From the NCBI RefSeq assembly GCF_036021035.1, contig NZ_CP107930.1, positions 2,666,001 to 2,730,000 of the forward strand: 64,000 bases of DNA, read 5' to 3'. Every line of letters starts with the position of its first letter. Position 1 is the stretch's first letter. The translations under genes and the position numbers were made by a program. Of this stretch, positions 1 to 8,303 are shown one piece after another. Under the pieces are notes generated by a model. That model searched no databases. It was not told the origin of the DNA and was given only the letters and a program-made list of their open reading frames with translations. The stretch is from Kineococcus sp. NBC_00420 (GTDB lineage Bacteria; Actinomycetota; Actinomycetes; Actinomycetales; Kineococcaceae).

Positions 1-429
1 GCGATCGCCGAGGCGGTGGCGATCCTGCAGGCCGCCCTGGCCCGGGACCGCCTGGGCGAGTTCCAGGCCCAGGCCGCCATCGCCGCCCTGCACGCCGACG
101 CGACGAGCACGGAGGCGACCGACTGGGTCCAGGTCGTGGAGTGGTACGACGAACTGCTGCGCCTCACCGACACCCCCGTCGTGCGGCTGAACCGGGCGGT
201 CGCGCTCGGGGAGGCCGACGGGCCGCGGGCCGGGTTGGCCGCCCTCGCCGAGGTCGACGCCGCGACCCCCCGCCACGCGGCCGTGGCGGCGTTCCTGCAC
301 GAACGCGACGGCGACCTCGCGGGCGCCGCGCGGCTCTACGCCCAGGCAGCGCTCGCGGCCGGGAACCTGGCCGAGCGCGAGCACCTGATCCGCCGGGCCG
401 CCCGGCTCAACGCTCGCCTCCGCGGCTGA
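1..429 (+). CDS. ECF-type RNA polymerase sigma factor with C-terminal DUF6596/TPR-like region (5' partial)
   Basis: This open frame runs in from the left edge and ends at a TGA, so only the carboxy-terminal part (about 142 residues) is visible. The residues match the helical carboxy-terminal half of the large ECF sigma factors that carry a DUF6596 region: a run reading VVRLNRAVALGEADG followed by AGLAALAEVD and a final ERAHLIRR-like helix (here EREHLIRRAARLNARL). The sigma2 and sigma4 domains would lie upstream, outside the window. In this family the extra region is thought to regulate the sigma factor in place of a separate anti-sigma factor. The end overlaps the convergent gene on the other strand by 23 bases. 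The family call is good; target genes cannot be inferred. Confidence 0.8.
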   Translation, partial: AIAEAVAILQAALARDRLGEFQAQAAIAALHADATSTEATDWVQVVEWYDELLRLTDTPVVRLNRAVALGEADGPRAGLAALAEVDAATPRHAAVAAFLHERDGDLAGAARLYAQAALAAGNLAEREHLIRRAARLNARLRG

Positions 430-883
430 GGGCCCGCGACACGTCGGCGACGTGGACGTCGACGAGCACCTGGTCCGCCTGCGGGGCCGCGTCGCCGAGG
501 ACCGTCCGGAGTCGTTGCAGCACAGCGCTTCGGACCTCGCGACCCAGCGACGGGAGGTGCACGCCGTAGCCGGCGGAGACGTCGACGACGACCGTCTCGA
601 GGTGCTGCGCCTCGTCGGTGGCGCAGCTGATCGCGAGCGCCGAGACCCCCGTCACCGCGTCGACGGCGGGCCGCAGCTGGGTGACGAGGACGTCGCCGCT
701 GAGCAGGAACTCGCTGAGCTCGTGGGCGCCGACGACGGGGTCGGCGGGGCGGAAGGCGCGACGGACGCGGTCGAGGACGGCGGCGCGCACGGCCACCCAG
801 CCCGTCTCGGTGTGGGCGCGCAGCGCGGCGGTCGCGAGGGCCAACGCCTCGTCACCAGATCGCGGTTCGCGGTTCACTGCCAT
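407..883 (-). CDS. Asp23/Gls24-like protein coupled to ECF sigma factor
   Basis: A protein of 158 residues. I chose the ATG at 881-883 because it overlaps the stop of the upstream sigma factor gene by 10 bases, an arrangement that implies translational coupling. The carboxy-terminal half (about residues 95-150) has the Asp23/Gls24 pattern: a hydrophobic strand (VVVDVSAGYGVHLPSL), an amphipathic helix (REVRSAVLQRLRTVLG) and a closing strand VDVHVADVS. The amino-terminal half is mostly helical and not recognised. Asp23 proteins usually sit at the membrane through AmaP. Its position directly behind an ECF sigma gene, and divergent from an Asp23/AmaP operon, suggests that it modulates the sigma factor or joins the same envelope complex. 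That role is inference; no zinc anti-sigma motif or membrane segment is present. Confidence 0.6.
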   Translation of the reverse strand: MAVNREPRSGDEALALATAALRAHTETGWVAVRAAVLDRVRRAFRPADPVVGAHELSEFLLSGDVLVTQLRPAVDAVTGVSALAISCATDEAQHLETVVVDVSAGYGVHLPSLGREVRSAVLQRLRTVLGDAAPQADQVLVDVHVADVSRALSRGGER

Positions 884-1446
884 CCCTCCAGGGTGCTCGC
901 CAACGCGGTGCGCGCTCGTTCGAGGAGACCACGGACCGCGGTGCTCGTCGTGCCGAGGACCTCCGCGATCTCCTCGTAGCTCAGTTCCTCGACCTCGCGC
1001 AGGATCCAGGCCGAGCGTTGTCGCGGGGGCAGCAGCTGCAGGGCCAGGTCGAGCGCCTCCCGCAGCGCGGCCGCCTCGCTGGTCCGGGCGGGGTCGGCGC
1101 GCAGGTCGCGGATCTGGTCGCGGACCTCGTCGAGCTCGACGTCGAGGACGAGGTCGTCGTTCTTGCGCCGGGAACGGCGGAACACCTCGTGGCGGCAGAT
1201 GGTGAACAGCCAGGTGCGCACGGAGGAGTCGCCGCGGAAGTTCTTCAGACCGCGCCAGGCCGCGAGGAAGGTCTCCTGGACGCAGTCGTCGCTCTGGCTG
1301 CGGTCGTCGAGGAGCCGTGCGGCGTAGCGGTAGAGGGAGGGGCCGTGGCGTTCGACGAGTTCGGCGAAGGCGTCGCGGTCGCCCATGGTGGCGAGCGCGG
1401 TGAGGGTCGCGTCGTCCCTGGTCCCGTCCGTGGATCCGTCGTGCAT
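874..1446 (-). CDS. ECF-family RNA polymerase sigma factor
   Basis: A 190-residue sigma-70 family protein of ECF size. Region 2 covers roughly residues 18-85, including YRYAARLLDD, the DDCVQETFLAAWRG segment that contacts core polymerase, and a region 2.4-like stretch SSVRTWLFTICRHEVFRR. Region 4 covers roughly 120-185, with LPPRQRSAWILREVEELSYEEIAEVLG and a recognition helix ending RARTALA. It starts at GTG or ATG near 1446 (ATG read on the minus strand as MHDGSTDG). It is transcribed away from the Asp23/AmaP operon and is followed, with a 10-base overlap, by an Asp23-like gene instead of a typical anti-sigma gene. The likely target is the divergent operon 174 bases away, but no convincing ECF -35/-10 pair could be fixed there. 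Confidence 0.9.
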   Translation of the reverse strand: MHDGSTDGTRDDATLTALATMGDRDAFAELVERHGPSLYRYAARLLDDRSQSDDCVQETFLAAWRGLKNFRGDSSVRTWLFTICRHEVFRRSRRKNDDLVLDVELDEVRDQIRDLRADPARTSEAAALREALDLALQLLPPRQRSAWILREVEELSYEEIAEVLGTTSTAVRGLLERARTALASTLEGWQ

Positions 1447-1620
1447 CGACCTGCCGACCCCCTGTTCCGTCCTGCCGCATCAGAGCACGGGCGGCGCTGG
1501 ACCACCCGTTGAAACCTGTGGTGCAGGTCACACTCAAGGTCGCGTGACGTTTCCCCGGCGGCTCCCTCTACCCCCTGTGAACGCGGCAACCACGCCGCGG
1601 GACGACACGAGGAGAAACCC

Positions 1621-2103
1621 ATGACCCAGACCGCCGACCAGAAGTCGACCATCACCTCCACCGGGGCGACCGCCACCTCCACCGCTCCCTCCAGCCTGGC
1701 CTCCGCGCACGGCGTGACGACCATCGCCGACACCGTGGTCTCGAAGATCGCCGGGCTCGCCGCAAAGGACGTCTCCGGTGTCCACGCCCTCGGTGGCGGC
1801 GCCGCCCGCGCCGTCGGTGCCCTGCGCGAGCGCATCCCCGGCAGCCGCACCAACCACTCCCAGGGCGTGTCCGTCGAGGTCGGCGAGCGTCAGGCCGCCG
1901 TCGACATCGAGCTGATCGCCGAGTACGGCGTCGCCATCGCCGACCTCGCGACCGCGGTGCGCCGCAACGTCATCAACTCCGTCGAGCGCATGACCGGGCT
2001 CGAGGTCACCGAGGTCAACCTCGAGGTCTCCGACGTGCACCTGCCCGACGAGGACGACGCCGAGGAGACCCCGGTGCGCACCACCACCACGCGCGTCCAG
2101 TGA
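1621..2103 (+). CDS. Asp23/Gls24 family envelope stress response protein
   Basis: A 160-residue protein with an ATG start preceded by a good Shine-Dalgarno sequence (cgaggag, 7 bases upstream). The Asp23 domain covers about residues 30-150: TTIADTVVSKIAGLAAKDVSGVHALGGG, then a strand pair VSVEVGERQAAVDIELIAEYG and a long helix DLATAVRRNVINSVERMTG followed by TEVNLEVSDVHLP. In Gram-positive bacteria Asp23 is an abundant protein held at the inner face of the membrane by AmaP and linked to cell wall or alkaline stress. The Ser/Thr-rich amino terminus (residues 1-28) looks unstructured. It is the first gene of a tightly packed operon of six, and its stop overlaps the next start by 3 bases. Confidence 0.9.
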   Translation: MTQTADQKSTITSTGATATSTAPSSLASAHGVTTIADTVVSKIAGLAAKDVSGVHALGGGAARAVGALRERIPGSRTNHSQGVSVEVGERQAAVDIELIAEYGVAIADLATAVRRNVINSVERMTGLEVTEVNLEVSDVHLPDEDDAEETPVRTTTTRVQ

Positions 2104-2408
2104 CACCCGCCGATCCCAGCGACGTCCCGGAACTGGCCGACGCCCTCGCGGCCGCTGTGCTCCAGGTCCCGGGCGTCGTCCGGCTGAACGCCGGAGCGCT
2201 CGGTGAGATCGGCACCTACCTGCCGGGTCGCCGCGTCGCCGGCATCCGGCTGGGCAGCACCGAGGCACCGACCGAGGTGCACGTCGTGCTCCAGCCGGAC
2301 GTGCCGCTCCGCACGGTCGCCCAGGCCGTGCACGTCGCCGCCGGTGAACTCCTCACCGCGGCGGGCGCCCGCCCCGAGGTCCGCGTCCACGTGGACGACC
2401 TCGCGTGA
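2100..2408 (+). CDS. Small Asp23-like protein
   Basis: A 102-residue protein with GTG start overlapping the previous stop (GTGA). It has a compact version of the Asp23 layout: helix ELADALAAAVLQVPGVVRL, two strands around VAGIRLGSTEAPTEVHVVLQPD, helix LRTVAQAVHVAAGELL and a final strand EVRVHVDDL. It is shorter than full Asp23 proteins and has no membrane segment. Its place between an Asp23 gene and a DUF2273 gene says that it belongs to the same envelope-stress assembly. Such small paralogues are common in actinobacterial Asp23 operons, but their separate function is not known. Confidence 0.7.
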   Translation: MTPADPSDVPELADALAAAVLQVPGVVRLNAGALGEIGTYLPGRRVAGIRLGSTEAPTEVHVVLQPDVPLRTVAQAVHVAAGELLTAAGARPEVRVHVDDLA

Positions 2409-2440
2409 AAACCTCTGAAACCCCCTCGAAGGGAACTGTC

Positions 2441-2617
2441 ATGTCCTCCTCCACCACGGGCCTGATCGCCGGCCTGCTGCTGGCCCTCATCGGCGCGACC
2501 GCCGGTTTCGGCTGGTTGCTGCTGGGCGTCCTGCTCGGTGCGATCGGTTACCTGATCGGTGCCCACCTGGAGGGGCGGGTCGACCTGACGTCGTTGCTGC
2601 CGGGCCGTCGTGGCTGA
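2441..2617 (+). CDS. DUF2273 small membrane protein
   Basis: I place the start at ATG 2441, preceded by gaaggga, giving 58 residues; an in-frame upstream ATG at 2405 would add 12 polar residues. Nearly the whole amino-terminal part is hydrophobic (GLIAGLLLALIGATAGFGWLLLG and VLLGAIGYLIG), consistent with two short membrane-spanning helices in a hairpin, followed by a basic tail ending GRRG. This is the DUF2273 pattern, a family found next to Asp23 and AmaP genes in Gram-positive bacteria. It overlaps the following gene by 8 bases. Function is unknown apart from this association. Confidence 0.75.
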   Translation: MSSSTTGLIAGLLLALIGATAGFGWLLLGVLLGAIGYLIGAHLEGRVDLTSLLPGRRG

Positions 2618-3020
2618 CACCCTCGCGCCGGAGCGCGTCGAAGCGGGTGAGCGGGGGCGTCTCGTCGTCTCCGAGCGCGCGGTGTCCCGCATCGTCGAGG
2701 CCGCGGCCGCCGTACCGGGCACGCGACGCACCTCGAGCGCGAACCCCCGCACCGCGGCGGCGGCCGTCTCCGGCGTCGTGGACAGCGTCCTCGGGCGCTC
2801 CTACCCCGACGTCGACTGCACCGTCGCCGGTCACCGGGCCCGGGTGAAGGTCGAGGTCGCCGCCGTGTGGCCGGTGCCCGCCCCGCAGGTCGCGGCCCGC
2901 GTCCAGGCGGCGGTCACCGAGGCCCTCGACCACTACGCCGGGATGACGGTCGACGACGTGTCGGTCGTCGTCGCCACCTACGTGACCGACCAGCCCGAGA
3001 CCACCAGGAGGGTGTTGTGA
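2610..3020 (+). CDS. Asp23/Gls24 family protein
   Basis: A 136-residue protein with GTG start that overlaps the DUF2273 gene. An Asp23-type domain is visible from about residue 20: VSERAVSRIVEAAAAVPGTRR, strands around YPDVDCTVAGHRARVKVEVAAVWP, helix VAARVQAAVTEALDHYAG and last strand VDDVSVVVATYV. It is the third Asp23-like product of the operon and differs in length and charge from the first, so the operon encodes several paralogues that could form hetero-oligomers at the membrane (inference). Its stop codon overlaps the GTG start of the next gene. Confidence 0.8.
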   Translation: MADTLAPERVEAGERGRLVVSERAVSRIVEAAAAVPGTRRTSSANPRTAAAAVSGVVDSVLGRSYPDVDCTVAGHRARVKVEVAAVWPVPAPQVAARVQAAVTEALDHYAGMTVDDVSVVVATYVTDQPETTRRVL

Positions 3021-3556
3021 GCAGCTCCGAACGCGCGGCCGCCGCGCGCACCGGCTCCGGTCGCATCGGCGCCGTGGGTCCCGTCCTGGCCGTGCTGCTG
3101 CTGGCGCTGGCCGTCGTGCTGGGCCGGGAGGCCGGGATCGGCCTGGGCTGGTTCGGCGGGGGCCGCTGGCTCCCGTCCCTCGCGAAGTCCCTGGACGGTC
3201 TCGCGCCGTCCGGCGCCCTCGTCGCGGTGTGCTGCGTCGCGATCGTGCTGGGCGCGTGGCTGGTGGTGACCGGGTTCGGTCGCCGCTCCCGCCGCGCGAT
3301 CTCGGTCGCCGGCGCGGCCGGGGTCCACCTCTCCACCCGTGACGTCGCCCGCCTCGCCTCCGGCGCCGCCCGTCGCTGCGACGGGGTGCTTGAGGCCAAG
3401 ACCACCGCGTCGCGCAAGATCGTGTCGGTCGCGGTGCAGGCCACGTCCGCGGACGTCCGCGAGGACGTCGCCCGGGCCGTGGCGGCCCAGCTCGCCCCCC
3501 TGTCCCGCGCTCCCCGCGTCCGGGTGCGGGTCAACGCACCGGAGGTGCTGTCGTGA
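3017..3556 (+). CDS. DUF6286 family membrane protein
   Basis: A 179-residue protein starting at GTG 3017, preceded by caggagg and overlapping the upstream stop by 3 bases. Two membrane helices are clear: about residues 19-37 (VGPVLAVLLLALAVVLG) and 66-86 (SGALVAVCCVAIVLGAWLVV). A basic linker GRRSRRAIS follows, then a cytoplasmic domain of about 85 residues with an Asp23-like strand-helix-strand layout (VSVAVQATSADVREDVARAV). DUF6286 proteins are regular members of actinobacterial Asp23/AmaP operons. It probably helps anchor the soluble Asp23 paralogues; this is inferred from layout and context. Confidence 0.75.
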   Translation: MSSSERAAAARTGSGRIGAVGPVLAVLLLALAVVLGREAGIGLGWFGGGRWLPSLAKSLDGLAPSGALVAVCCVAIVLGAWLVVTGFGRRSRRAISVAGAAGVHLSTRDVARLASGAARRCDGVLEAKTTASRKIVSVAVQATSADVREDVARAVAAQLAPLSRAPRVRVRVNAPEVLS

Positions 3557-4116
3557 AACGCGGAGTCCTCGCCCTGGACCGGACGCTCGCCGTCCTCCTC
3601 GGTCTCGTCCTGCTCGCCGGTGGGGTCGCCGGGTTGGCCTGGTGGACGGGTGACCTGCTGCCCGACACCACCCTCGACACCGGCTCGATCACCTCGGCGC
3701 TCGACGCCGGGTGGTTCCCCGCGGCCTGCGGGGCGGTCGCGGTCGTCCTCGCGCTGCTGGCGCTGTGGTGGCTGCTCGCGCACCTGCCGCAGCGCAGGAT
3801 CGGGGCGGTGCTGCTACCCGGTTCCGGTGGCCGGGGCACGTTCCAGGTCAACGGTGACGGTCCGACCCGGGCCGCCGCGCAGGTCCTCACGGGTGTTCCC
3901 GGGGTCCGCTCGGCCAGTGGCCGCCTCGTGCACGACCGCGGGAACCTCGTCGCGGAACTCTCGGCGACCGTCGAACCCCGCGCGGACCTCGGTGAGGTCG
4001 CCGCCGCTGCCGCGGAGATCCGTGGGCAGCTGCTCGAGGTCCTCGGCCGGCCCGACGTCGTGGGCCGGGTGCGCCTCAGCGTCGCCCGCGCCGACCGTGG
4101 GGCCCGCGTCGCCTGA
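3553..4116 (+). CDS. amaP: Alkaline shock response membrane anchor protein AmaP
   Basis: A 187-residue protein with GTG start inside the 4-base overlap with the DUF6286 gene. It has two membrane helices, about residues 10-32 (LAVLLGLVLLAGGVAGLAWW) and 55-77 (AACGAVAVVLALLALWWLLAHL), then a cytoplasmic domain to residue 187 with a strand-helix-strand pattern ending VGRVRLSVARADRG. AmaP anchors Asp23 to the membrane in staphylococci, and proteins with this arrangement close Asp23 operons in actinobacteria. It is the last gene of the operon; about 125 bases separate it from the next coding region. Confidence 0.75.
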   Translation: MKRGVLALDRTLAVLLGLVLLAGGVAGLAWWTGDLLPDTTLDTGSITSALDAGWFPAACGAVAVVLALLALWWLLAHLPQRRIGAVLLPGSGGRGTFQVNGDGPTRAAAQVLTGVPGVRSASGRLVHDRGNLVAELSATVEPRADLGEVAAAAAEIRGQLLEVLGRPDVVGRVRLSVARADRGARVA

Positions 4117-5232: not shown

Positions 5233-5305
5233 GCGGACGTAGCGCAGTTGGTAGCGCATAACCTTGCCAAGGTTAGGGTCGCGAGTTCGAGTCTCGTCGT
5301 CCGCT
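5233..5305 (+). tRNA. tRNA-Gly (anticodon GCC)
   Basis: The acceptor stem GCGGACG (5233-5239) pairs fully with CGTCCGC (5298-5304) and T5305 is the discriminator. The anticodon arm is TAACC-TTGCCAA-GGTTA, giving anticodon GCC for glycine. The T arm is GCGAG-TTCGAGT-CTCGT, with the TTCGA loop core. No CCA is encoded. It lies 17 bases downstream of the cellulase stop. No integrase gene or duplicated 3' end was seen, so there is no sign that the gene serves as an attachment site. Confidence 0.96.
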
Positions 5306-5336
5306 CTCACGCAGCACAGCAGGTACGGTCCCTCTC

Positions 5337-5750
5337 ATGAGGGGCCGTTCTGCGTTATGGACCGCCTTCCGCGCCTGGCGGAACCTGCCGGTCAGCACCC
5401 TCGCCCTCCTGTGGGCCCGCGCGCACGGCGCGACGATCGCCCTCGGCGACGACCTGTTCGTCGAGTGCTCCGGGATGCCGCGCGGGAGCTACGGCCGGGG
5501 CGGGACGACGCTCGGCAACGTCTGGTTGCACGGCGGGCTGGGCGGGCCGCAGCGACGGCGCCACGAGCTCCGCCACGCCGACCAGTACGCGCTGCTCGGC
5601 ACCACCCCGTTCCTCGCCCTCTACGGCCTGAACGCGCTGGTGACCCGCAACCGCCCGCACCACAACGTCTTCGAACGCTGGGCGGGACTCGAGGACGGCG
5701 GCTACCGACACCCGCAGCGGACTCGGGACCGGGACCTCAGGACGGGATGA
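5337..5750 (+). CDS. Hypothetical protein with HExxH-like motif
   Basis: A 137-residue protein with ATG start just behind tRNA-Gly. I do not recognise a named family. The central region holds HGGLGGPQRRRHELRHADQYALLG, whose HELRH matches the HExxH zinc-binding signature of metallopeptidases, followed by a hydrophobic segment TTPFLALYGLNALV and then NRPHHNVFERWAGLEDGGY. A glycine-rich part SGMPRGSYGRGGTTLGN lies before it. Proteins of this type (short, one HExxH, no signal peptide) are scattered in actinobacteria. It could be a small membrane-associated metalloprotein. The gene overlaps the convergent phosphatase gene by 14 bases. Function is unassigned. Confidence 0.65.
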   Translation: MRGRSALWTAFRAWRNLPVSTLALLWARAHGATIALGDDLFVECSGMPRGSYGRGGTTLGNVWLHGGLGGPQRRRHELRHADQYALLGTTPFLALYGLNALVTRNRPHHNVFERWAGLEDGGYRHPQRTRDRDLRTG

Positions 5751-7797
5751 CGGCCTCGTCGAGGGGGTCCGGGCGGACCCGCACCGCCAGGACCGCGACG
5801 TCGTCCTCGGCGTGGCCGGCGACGTGTTCCAGCACGGCGTCGCAGATCTCGGCGGGCGAGCGGTCGGCGAACCCCGCGGCGGTCTCCGCGAGCCACTGCA
5901 GGCCGTCGTCGATCGAGGCGCCGCGGCGTTCCACGAGCCCGTCGGTGTAGAGCAGGACCGTCGCGCCCGGCGGGAGGCCGTGGACGTGGTCGGCCCGGAC
6001 GAACTCCGCCTCCAGGCCCAGCAGCAGGTCCGGCCGGGTCCGCAGGAGCTGGCTCGAACCGTCCGGCGAGACGACCAGCGGCGGGGGGTGGCCGGCGTTG
6101 GACCAGCGCAGCCGCCAGTCCTGCGACCCGTCGAGGGGTTCGATCGTGGCGAGCACGCCGGTCGCCAGCGCACCGACCCCGAGGTCGCGCATCGCCCGGT
6201 CCAGGGCGGCGAGCGCCGCGGCGGGCGAGACCTCCAGGGAGTAGCCGATGCCGCGCAGCAGGTTGCGGACCTGACCCATCGCGGCGGCGGCGTCCTGGTC
6301 GTGACCGGTGACGTCGCCGATGACCAGGCAGGTGGTGCCGGAGGCGGTGAGGAAGGCGTCGTGCCAGTCGCCACCGACCTGAGCGTGCTCGGCGGCGGGG
6401 AGGTAGCGGACGGCGATCTCGAGGTGCTGGGGCAGCGGCGCCGACGTCAACAGGCTGCGCTGCAACGTCTCCGCCAGGCTGCGGACGGCGGCGGCCGCCT
6501 TGCGTTCGGAGCGCAGCGCCCGGACCCGGTCCAGCGCCTGCGCGGTGGAGGCGGCGAGGGCGTTGAGGAGGTCGTCGTCCTCGGCGGTGAGGACGCGGTC
6601 CCGGCGCCAGGAGAGGCCGAGGGCGCCGACGACGCGGTCGGTCAGGCGCAGCGGCCAGGCGGCGCTCGTGCCGGGGCCGTCGTCGCGGACGACCGGTGCC
6701 CCGCCGAGGGCTCCCGCGAGCGCGGCGGCCGCGGGGTCGTCGACGTCGCCCAGGACCTGCAGGCTGCGGTCCTGGAGGACCCCGAGCACGATGCCGTCGG
6801 CCTCGAGCAGGCCGATCGCGCCGCGGCCGAGGACCTGCAGGACGTCGTGCTCGTCCTGGGCGTCGGGCATGGCCTGGGCGACGGCGACGAGACCGGCGAG
6901 GCGCCGGGCCTGCCACTGCTGCAGGTCCGCGCGGCGACGTTCGGCCTCGTAGGACGCGGCGGCGGACAGGGCGTCGCCCACGGTGGCGGCGACGAGGCGG
7001 AGGAAGTCGCGGTAGGTGGCGTCGAGGGCGATGTGGTCGCTGAGCACGGCCGCCAGGACCCCCTGGGACTCGCCCCCGAGGGCCGCCGGGATGCGGACCC
7101 AGGCGAGTCTCGGCGCACCCGGTTCGTCCTGCACGAGGACCTGGCGGGGGCTCAGCACGGACGGCGGGGGCGGCAACGTCGACTCGTGGCCGGGCAGCTG
7201 GAGGTCGACCGCCCGCAGGTCCGCGGGCAGCGTCGTCAGCACGTCCAGGGCGCGCTTCGCCAGTTCGAGCGGCGGCTGCAGCTCGGTGGCGAGGTCGCCG
7301 AGGCGGCTGAGGAGTTCGAGGCGACGGTGGTCCTGCACCTGTCGGGTGGTCTCCGCCGCGATGTCCACCACCCCGGCGATGGCCCCGCCGTCGTCGCGGA
7401 CCGGGGAGTAGGAGAACGTGAAGAACGTCTCCTCCAGGAACCCGCTGCGGTCCATCATCACCGGCATGTCGGTGAACCAGACGGCGTCCCCGGTCATCGC
7501 CCGGGCGAAGAGGGGTTCCAGCTCCGCCCAGGTCTCGGCGAAGACCTCGCGGACGGGGCGTCCCAGCGCGGGGTGCTTGCGGCCGATCGTGTCGGCGTAG
7601 ACCTGGTTGTAGAGCATCGTGAGGTCGGGGCCCCAGGCGATGAGGACCGGGAACCGCGTCTCGAGCGCCAGCTCGAGGGCTCGGCGAAGGGTGCGGGGCC
7701 ACTCGTCCGGCGTCCCCAGGGTCGTCGCGGACCAGTCGACGGCCTCGTAGGCCGACCGCAGGTCTGCCGCGGAGCCGAAGGGCAGACTGAACACCAC
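5737..7797 (-). CDS. PAS-GAF-SpoIIE (PP2C) serine phosphatase
   Basis: From the GTG at 7795-7797 the protein has 686 residues. About residues 45-150 form a PAS domain (FPVLIAWGPDLTMLYNQVYADTIG to VVDIAAETTRQV), 160-280 is a linker with a helical segment, about 290-440 is GAF-like, and 455-680 is a SpoIIE/RsbU-type PP2C phosphatase. The metal-binding acidic residues are in VGGDWHDAF, LVIGDVTGHD, WSNAGHPPPL, YTDGLVERR and EDDVAVLAVRV. Such phosphatases dephosphorylate anti-anti-sigma (STAS) proteins and so switch partner sigma factors, sensing signals through PAS and GAF. No STAS or anti-sigma gene is adjacent. The start is uncertain because no strong Shine-Dalgarno is visible. Confidence 0.88.
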   Translation of the reverse strand: MVFSLPFGSAADLRSAYEAVDWSATTLGTPDEWPRTLRRALELALETRFPVLIAWGPDLTMLYNQVYADTIGRKHPALGRPVREVFAETWAELEPLFARAMTGDAVWFTDMPVMMDRSGFLEETFFTFSYSPVRDDGGAIAGVVDIAAETTRQVQDHRRLELLSRLGDLATELQPPLELAKRALDVLTTLPADLRAVDLQLPGHESTLPPPPSVLSPRQVLVQDEPGAPRLAWVRIPAALGGESQGVLAAVLSDHIALDATYRDFLRLVAATVGDALSAAASYEAERRRADLQQWQARRLAGLVAVAQAMPDAQDEHDVLQVLGRGAIGLLEADGIVLGVLQDRSLQVLGDVDDPAAAALAGALGGAPVVRDDGPGTSAAWPLRLTDRVVGALGLSWRRDRVLTAEDDDLLNALAASTAQALDRVRALRSERKAAAAVRSLAETLQRSLLTSAPLPQHLEIAVRYLPAAEHAQVGGDWHDAFLTASGTTCLVIGDVTGHDQDAAAAMGQVRNLLRGIGYSLEVSPAAALAALDRAMRDLGVGALATGVLATIEPLDGSQDWRLRWSNAGHPPPLVVSPDGSSQLLRTRPDLLLGLEAEFVRADHVHGLPPGATVLLYTDGLVERRGASIDDGLQWLAETAAGFADRSPAEICDAVLEHVAGHAEDDVAVLAVRVRPDPLDEAVIPS

Positions 7798-7817
7798 CCT
7801 GGCAATGTAACGGCGAT

Positions 7818-8303
7818 CTAGGGCCCGGGTTCCCTCCCGAGCTTCGCCGGGCCGTGCTCGGCGTCGCGCAACCAGCGCGAGCCGCTGCCCTCGTCGCGGG
7901 CGGCGTCGTGGGGGTTGAACAAGGTGCAGCGGGTCAGCGAGAGGCACCCGCAGCCGATGCACCCGGTCAGCGACGTGCGCAGGGCCTGCAGCTCCCGGAT
8001 GCGGGCGTCGAGGAGCCGCTGCCAGACCTCCCCGACCCGCGACCACTCCCGGGCGGAGGGGGCCCGGTCGGACGGCAGGGTGTCGAGGGCCTCGCCGATG
8101 TCGGCCAGGGAGAGGCCGACGCGCTGTCCGGCGGCGATGACGGCGAGGCGCCGCAGGACGTGACGGGGGAAGCGGCGTCGCCCCCCGGCGTCGCGGACCG
8201 GGCTGAGCAGCCCGCGTTCCTCGTAGTAGCGCAACGCGGGGACGCTGAGTCCGGCGCGTTCGGCCACGGTGCCGATGCTCAGCAGGTCGTCTCGCACGCT
8301 CAC
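7818..8303 (-). CDS. soxR: Redox-sensitive transcriptional activator SoxR
   Basis: A MerR-family regulator of 161 residues from GTG 8303 (a second GTG at 8297 gives 159). The amino-terminal winged helix reads LLSIGTVAERAGLSVPALRYYEERGLLSP, followed by the dimerisation helix and the [2Fe-2S] cluster motif GCIGCGCLSLTRC near residue 118, with the C-x2-C-x-C-x5-C spacing diagnostic of SoxR. In actinobacteria SoxR responds to redox-cycling compounds and turns on a few detoxifying oxidoreductases instead of soxS. It is divergent from a VOC gene and the shared intergenic space holds a SoxR-type operator, so it very likely controls the neighbouring operon and perhaps itself. Confidence 0.95.
   Translation of the reverse strand: MSVRDDLLSIGTVAERAGLSVPALRYYEERGLLSPVRDAGGRRRFPRHVLRRLAVIAAGQRVGLSLADIGEALDTLPSDRAPSAREWSRVGEVWQRLLDARIRELQALRTSLTGCIGCGCLSLTRCTLFNPHDAARDEGSGSRWLRDAEHGPAKLGREPGP

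Follow-up and report, generated by a model that had tools for sequence, protein, structure and literature searches.

What does an extracytoplasmic function (ECF) sigma factor control when its gene overlaps that of an Asp23-like protein and both lie divergent from an operon of asp23 type? The question is raised by a stretch of 64,000 nucleotides from Kineococcus sp. NBC_00420 (contig NZ_CP107930.1, positions 2,666,001 to 2,730,000), here called the window, which belongs to a genome consisting of a single contig of 5.43 Mb. With moderate confidence, the unit is read as a regulatory switch for an actinobacterial Asp23 envelope-stress regulon, driven by the ECF factor and with the Asp23-like partner, here named Rsa, as its anti-sigma factor. 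This reading builds on the conservation of the gene pair, its overlap, a shared promoter, the link between promoter and ECF gene, and the Asp23-like half of Rsa, all of them observations at the level of sequence. The features concerned, by window position, are these:

407-877, minus strand: Rsa (name coined here), Asp23-like partner of the sigma factor; probable GTG start at 877, stop at 407-409
874-1446, minus strand: ECF sigma factor with sigma2 and sigma4 domains (Pfam, NCBIfam, PDB sequence search)
1517-1532, no strand: Crp-type palindrome TGTGGTGCAGGTCACA, one mismatch to TGTGA-N6-TCACA
1543-1549, plus strand: -35-like element CGTGACG of the asp23 promoter, at a conserved gap from the palindrome
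1564-1572, plus strand: -10-like element CCCTCTACC, of a family resembling nTCTCAC; CGTC in relatives
1621-2103, plus strand: AspA, Asp23-family protein, first gene of the operon (PF03780, 104 bits)
2100-2408, plus strand: small, weakly Asp23-like protein (PF03780, 13 bits, under the cut-off)
2405-2617, plus strand: small DUF2273-like membrane protein (24.2 bits against a cut-off of 25.4)
2610-3020, plus strand: AspB, second Asp23-family protein (PF03780, 32.8 bits)
3017-3556, plus strand: DUF6286-like membrane protein (34.9 bits against a cut-off of 35)
3553-4116, plus strand: AmaP-like membrane protein (NF033218, 38 bits against an equivalog cut-off of 55)

The six genes at 1621-4116 thus form one plus-strand operon divergent from the ECF-Rsa pair, a layout already described in a first-pass annotation of the sequence and confirmed here by domain searches and comparison of loci. 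The ECF protein, of 190 residues, has sigma2 and sigma4 domains only (Pfam Sigma70_r2, 68 bits, residues 30-96; Sigma70_r4_2, 59 bits, residues 129-182), and ECF chains were matched in the PDB sequence search.

The pair is conserved well beyond the window. In a sample of 140 loci, 61 distinct Rsa genes scoring at least 45 bits were counted, omitting short own-genome duplicates (L001-L004, L006-L008) and rows under 45 bits; an ECF gene lies directly upstream in 59 of them, the two genes overlap by exactly 4 bases in 51, and a divergent asp23 gene is present within the stretch in 52. The ECF genes of L083 and L100 look frame-broken. The proposal that an Asp23-like protein occupies the usual position of an anti-sigma gene agrees with this co-occurrence across genomes and with the overlap. 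An overlap as such holds, and its originally described length of 10 bases probably does not: it needs an ATG start at 883, and the GTG at 877 gives 4 bases. The longer form (407-883) is probably not real because the family pattern is a GTGA/ATGA overlap, usually 3' of a GGAGG-like ribosome site within the sigma gene. The window genome holds five Rsa genes, each behind an ECF gene; four of the pairs lie opposite an asp23 operon, and the fifth (L182) has no asp23 gene in the surrounding 14 kb. A sixth match in this genome, at E 0.125, was taken as chance.

Counts by profile are lower bounds, as up to nine candidates were scored per genome in the order-wide and phylum-wide searches. Rsa was found in at least 39 of 396 genomes of the order (three at 41-42 bits) and in 10 of 11 genomes of the genus, and the 23 loci with named hosts belong to Kineococcus, Quadrisphaera, Cellulomonas, Oerskovia, Georgenia, Isoptericola, Krasilnikoviella and one Actinoplanes. 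At the level of the phylum, at least 76 of 396 genomes match the Rsa profile at E <= 0.001; among the matches listed, scores above 50 bits are confined, besides the window genome, to G358 (82 bits) and G419 (51 bits), and the remainder reach no more than about 36 bits, as ordinary Asp23 proteins do. An alternative order, asp23 operon, ECF gene and Rsa-like gene on one strand, is found in six loci (L243, L244, L245, L247, L248, L257), where the last gene is called Rsa-like by position because it scores only 26-39 bits. An Rsa gene standing without an ECF gene, L023, lies about 100 bases from a site combining Crp palindrome and promoter that faces a gene of asp23-operon type.

The divergent intergenic regions share a composite promoter directed at the asp23 gene. 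The Crp operator consensus is TGTGA-N6-TCACA, and the best match to it has at most one mismatch in 51 of the 52 regions, 33 of them exact and the window copy with one mismatch; dinucleotide shuffles reach at most one palindrome mismatch in 0.5% per locus. With at most one mismatch, CGTGACG stands 9 or 10 bases past the palindrome in 45 of 52 loci, and a -10-like element, n[TA]C[TC][CA]AC in the 50 aligned, follows 14 or 15 bases after it in 46. The hexamer TANNNT, sought 8-24 bases after CGTGACG, occurs in none of the 50, and we infer a bipartite promoter of non-housekeeping type that the ECF factor would recognize. Copies of the promoter above the 99% shuffle level, by a score trained on 50 of the 52 loci, are found on the asp23-directed strand in 50 of 52 loci and on the ECF-directed strand in none, and autoregulation via an asp23-type promoter is therefore unlikely in divergent loci. 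At L310 the composite promoter points at the ECF and Rsa-like genes themselves, and feedback may exist there. The window genome encodes a Crp-like protein with a RETVNK helix, which, judging from the general Crp consensus, may bind the promoter palindrome.

To assess the association of the promoter with the ECF gene, 119 genomes were searched, 47 of which had matches, and 59 asp23 genes were drawn from 44 of these; the set is without G031, G107 and G108 and without several asp23 genes of the 52 loci. Linkage was assigned by hand and gave 30 linked genes, among which L181 is split over two frames. With at most three mismatches, the full composite including the palindrome stands before 11 of the 12 operons that have both an ECF gene and an Rsa gene of at least 45 bits linked to them; where the linked ECF gene comes without such an Rsa, the figure is 2 of 9. 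Among unlinked genes in Rsa-positive genomes the composite precedes 6 of 9 of AspA type and none of five diverged paralogues, and among the remaining asp23 genes 5 of 24, four of those five having an ECF gene downstream. A wider motif, consisting of GTGA(C/G)G-like and CGTC/CTC-like boxes within 320 bases upstream and chosen after inspection of the sequences, is present at 25 of 30 ECF-linked genes versus 4 of 15 unlinked genes in Rsa-negative genomes (shuffle expectation 2.7 and 1.0; Fisher p 5e-4, the relatedness of the genomes making p-values overstate independence). Unlinked genes with an ECF-Rsa pair elsewhere in the genome carry it in 6 of 14 cases, with 1.2 expected. Most of the 12 operons linked to both ECF and Rsa overlap the discovery set, and leaving out all 12 gives 17 of 18 linked genes with the wider motif.

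Eight ECF-linked operons (L169, L175, L177, L181, L193, L194, L199, L204) lack the palindrome and keep the -35/-10 pair, the -10 element being mostly ECF-like CGTC. CGTC is the usual -10 sequence of ECF promoters. Survival of the pair without the palindrome indicates that the two elements are separable and that the pair goes with the ECF gene. The ECF factor is the most likely driver of the asp23 regulon, because the promoter accompanies the linked ECF gene even where the palindrome is missing. The earlier view that an envelope-stress operon is tied to the sigma factor gains support from this sigma-type promoter, which stands before asp23 operons and accompanies linked ECF genes.

Rsa itself scores 16.1 bits against the Pfam Asp23 family PF03780, below the 28-bit cut-off. 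Profile-profile comparison by hhalign aligns it with the AspA family at 94% probability (E 1.5e-7, 69 columns), by which Rsa appears Asp23-related in a wider sense, in its conserved C-terminal half. An AlphaFold2 model built from 57 sequences (predicted local distance difference test, pLDDT, 86; predicted template modelling score, pTM, 0.73) has helices at residues 8-21 and 24-41 forming an N-terminal hairpin, followed by a beta-beta-helix-beta-beta-helix-beta domain, and model and profile alignment agree with the predicted combination of an Asp23-like domain and a helical half. The motifs LRxHTxxGW and RPSAPVRG, in or just past the hairpin, are conserved in Rsa and missing from the AspA consensus. 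With the Rsa model as query, Foldseek gave no match at E <= 0.001; in VIA-align, residues 43-151 resembled widespread alpha/beta folds, among them MamM C-terminal domains (Z 9.5), a comparison that barely tested the hairpin and says nothing on it. No chain of the Asp23 family came up in PDB sequence searches, where the best E values were 0.42 and 0.24, and the match at E 0.24, of residues 8-40 to the 46-residue chain Gp4, was taken as chance. Zinc-dependent anti-sigma factors have an HxxxCxxC motif as their hallmark; the window Rsa has a single cysteine and therefore no such motif. Anti-sigma factor of the ECF protein is the most likely role for Rsa, although this is a weaker inference than promoter recognition.

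Sites of the promoter extend to other genes. The exact pattern of Crp palindrome plus CGTGA(C/G)G occurs at 50 sites in 40 of 396 genomes of the order, the reversed control having none among the matches listed, and by hand count it is present in 23 of 39 Rsa-positive versus 17 of 357 other genomes (odds ratio 29, p 1.4e-16, kinship uncorrected). Fifteen of 25 scanned loci with this pattern lie at asp23 or ECF-Rsa genes. The composite with at most three mismatches gives 85 matches against 30 for the reversed control in 11 Kineococcus genomes, and 12 against 6 in the window genome. Eight sites in the latter have at most two mismatches: four belong to asp23 operons, one is opposite the fifth ECF-Rsa pair, one precedes the gene of a 79-residue protein (L183) and two are unexplained. 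Further sites stand upstream of unlinked asp23 operons (L287, L288, L290, L292), an aquaporin gene (L288; MIP, 185 bits), csbD (L289; 60.8 bits) and the gene of a LuxR-like protein (L291; GerE, 19.3 bits, under the cut-off). The 79-residue protein is similar by eye to the LuxR-like protein, and a small basic protein beside csbD (L289) resembles by eye the one opposite the fifth pair (L182); neither the 79-residue protein nor the one at L182 has a Pfam match. In Firmicutes both csbD and asp23 are SigB targets, and their occurrence among the candidate targets suggests a general-stress flavour. The exact pattern also lies upstream of a cation-efflux-like gene (L295; named from sequence) and others. 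With a Crp-type palindrome in 51 of 52 divergent loci and the promoter before unlinked genes too, the first-pass description of a self-contained module was not borne out. In one genus (g25), the sites of Crp palindrome plus CGTGACG at L294, L295, L296 and L299, upstream of an alanine dehydrogenase-like and a cation-efflux-like gene, have GTCGTAC at the -10 position.

In the favoured reading, the ECF factor would direct RNA polymerase to CGTGACG ... nTCTCAC (CGTC in relatives) before the adjacent asp23 operon, and would use the same promoter at other asp23 operons of the genome and at a few other genes. Rsa, encoded in overlap with the sigma gene, would restrain the ECF factor as an anti-sigma factor, the helical hairpin probably binding the sigma factor and the Asp23-like domain probably serving for sensing or docking. 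In many genera a further input probably comes from Crp, where the palindrome at its fixed distance would tune output. Sensing of the state of an Asp23/AmaP scaffold by Rsa is speculative.

Several observations weigh against an ECF-driven switch with Rsa as anti-sigma factor, besides the choice of the wider motif after inspection and the kinship of the genomes. A stricter motif is found at only 14 of 30 linked genes, 5 of 14 unlinked genes with the pair elsewhere and 1 of 15 unlinked genes in Rsa-negative genomes. The exact pattern is absent from the window's own genome, because the sites there carry mismatches; 10 of the 25 scanned sites have no asp23 or ECF-Rsa neighbour, and the pattern precedes an alanine dehydrogenase-like gene (L296, L299; named from sequence). 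Pfam and NCBIfam searches of Rsa returned no known anti-sigma domain, two orphan Rsa genes (L023, L044) stand without an ECF gene, and the Rsa-like genes of the one-strand loci score no better than ordinary Asp23.

Of the other accounts, the one that survives best is possible though doubtful, and makes Rsa a positive partner or adaptor that aids the ECF factor or brings it to the Asp23/AmaP layer. Overlap and strict pairing would suit any stoichiometric partner, Rsa has no recognisable anti-sigma domain, and among the orphan copies without ECF, L023 is found beside the conserved promoter; against this, genes cotranscribed with an ECF gene most often encode anti-sigma factors. The soluble Asp23 proteins beside ECF286 and ECF292 have likewise been predicted to be anti-sigma factors, according to a review (PMC8999054). 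A rather unlikely model takes up a suggestion of the first-pass annotation: the sigma factor would be anchored through Rsa to the Asp23/AmaP scaffold at the membrane and set free on damage to that scaffold. Rsa shares the Asp23-like domain, and tethering to an AmaP platform would be attractive by analogy because AmaP holds Staphylococcus aureus Asp23 at the membrane and Asp23 can form filaments (PMC6954212), but the fifth pair (L182) lacks any asp23 gene in the surrounding 14 kb. Also improbable is a reading in which an Asp23 paralogue has become an anti-sigma factor, Rsa, and signals the filling state of the Asp23/AmaP membrane scaffold: Rsa would co-assemble with Asp23, and scaffold loss would free the ECF factor so that more scaffold is made, while Crp gates the response by carbon state. 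If true, the unit would correspond in actinobacteria, under ECF and Crp control, to the SigB-asp23-csbD response known from Firmicutes. Least probable is activation of the asp23 operon by Crp from a weak housekeeping promoter, with the ECF pair linked by descent and controlling something else: the palindrome in 51 of 52 divergent loci, the Crp homologue with its RETV helix in the window genome and the same architecture before the alanine dehydrogenase-like gene in some genomes favour it, but TANNNT is missing in 50 of 50, the -35/-10 pair persists without palindrome in eight ECF-linked operons and is mostly missing where the ECF gene is unlinked, and the ECF-asp23 link is kept across two gene orders.

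The asp23 operon of S. aureus is under SigB control. As in the window, Asp23 and an AmaP-type membrane protein are encoded there in one operon, which PMC6954212 connects with envelope homeostasis and with AmaP as the Asp23 anchor; Kineococcus differs in the linked ECF pair, several Asp23-like proteins, the DUF6286-like protein and the Crp-type site. The pair of SigH and RshA, an ECF factor and a soluble zinc anti-sigma factor (PMC8999054), is alike in that a soluble partner is encoded with the sigma factor, whereas Rsa has an Asp23-like half and lacks the HxxxCxxC motif. A further likeness is to ECF286 and ECF292, whose genes adjoin those of soluble Asp23-family proteins predicted to be anti-sigma factors (Casas-Pastor et al. 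2021, as cited in PMC8999054), a likeness by description of neighbours rather than by group model, with Rsa below the Pfam Asp23 cut-off. The idea of pairing an ECF factor with a soluble Asp23 protein is thus already published as a prediction, according to that review. A literature search found no experimental study of an ECF-Asp23 pair; it also found no account of the promoter, the separable Crp input or the regulon, the original ECF classification paper lying outside its scope. What is new lies in the promoter that the loci share and in the further targets that it probably has.

The function of Asp23 and the means by which cells sense its state remain general questions, and the ECF-Rsa-asp23 unit, compact, with up to five copies per genome and a sharply defined promoter, makes both testable. 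The promoter lends itself to a reporter and the ECF-Rsa pair to a binding assay. With csbD, aquaporin and small regulators among its candidate members, the regulon points tentatively to osmotic or general envelope stress. Should Rsa prove to be an anti-sigma factor, its basis would be a structural stress protein and not the usual anti-sigma domains.

The inventory of the operon as three Asp23-like proteins, two membrane proteins and AmaP is fair in outline; four of the six calls fall below curated cut-offs, and the last gene, which at 38 bits does not reach the AmaP cut-off of 55 in NF033218, is named AmaP-like only. The product of 2100-2408 aligns by hhalign with Rsa at 90% and with AspA at merely 11%, and its AlphaFold2 model is alpha/beta (pLDDT 81). 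Facing rsa, window positions 1-429 hold the C-terminal part of a longer sigma-like gene (L013, 8838-10430) with a tetratricopeptide repeat (TPR)-like tail (TPR_7, E 0.018), which we take to resemble the TPR-tailed ECF42 factors. A tRNA-Gly (gcc) gene lies at 5233-5306, and a long open reading frame at 5737-8046 on the minus strand presumably encodes a PAS/GAF-PP2C phosphatase of RsbU type. Palindromes resembling TTACGGTGTAA, perhaps a TetR-type operator, are found upstream of 8 of 29 unlinked (L012, L161, L164, L179, L212-L215) and 0 of 30 linked asp23 genes.

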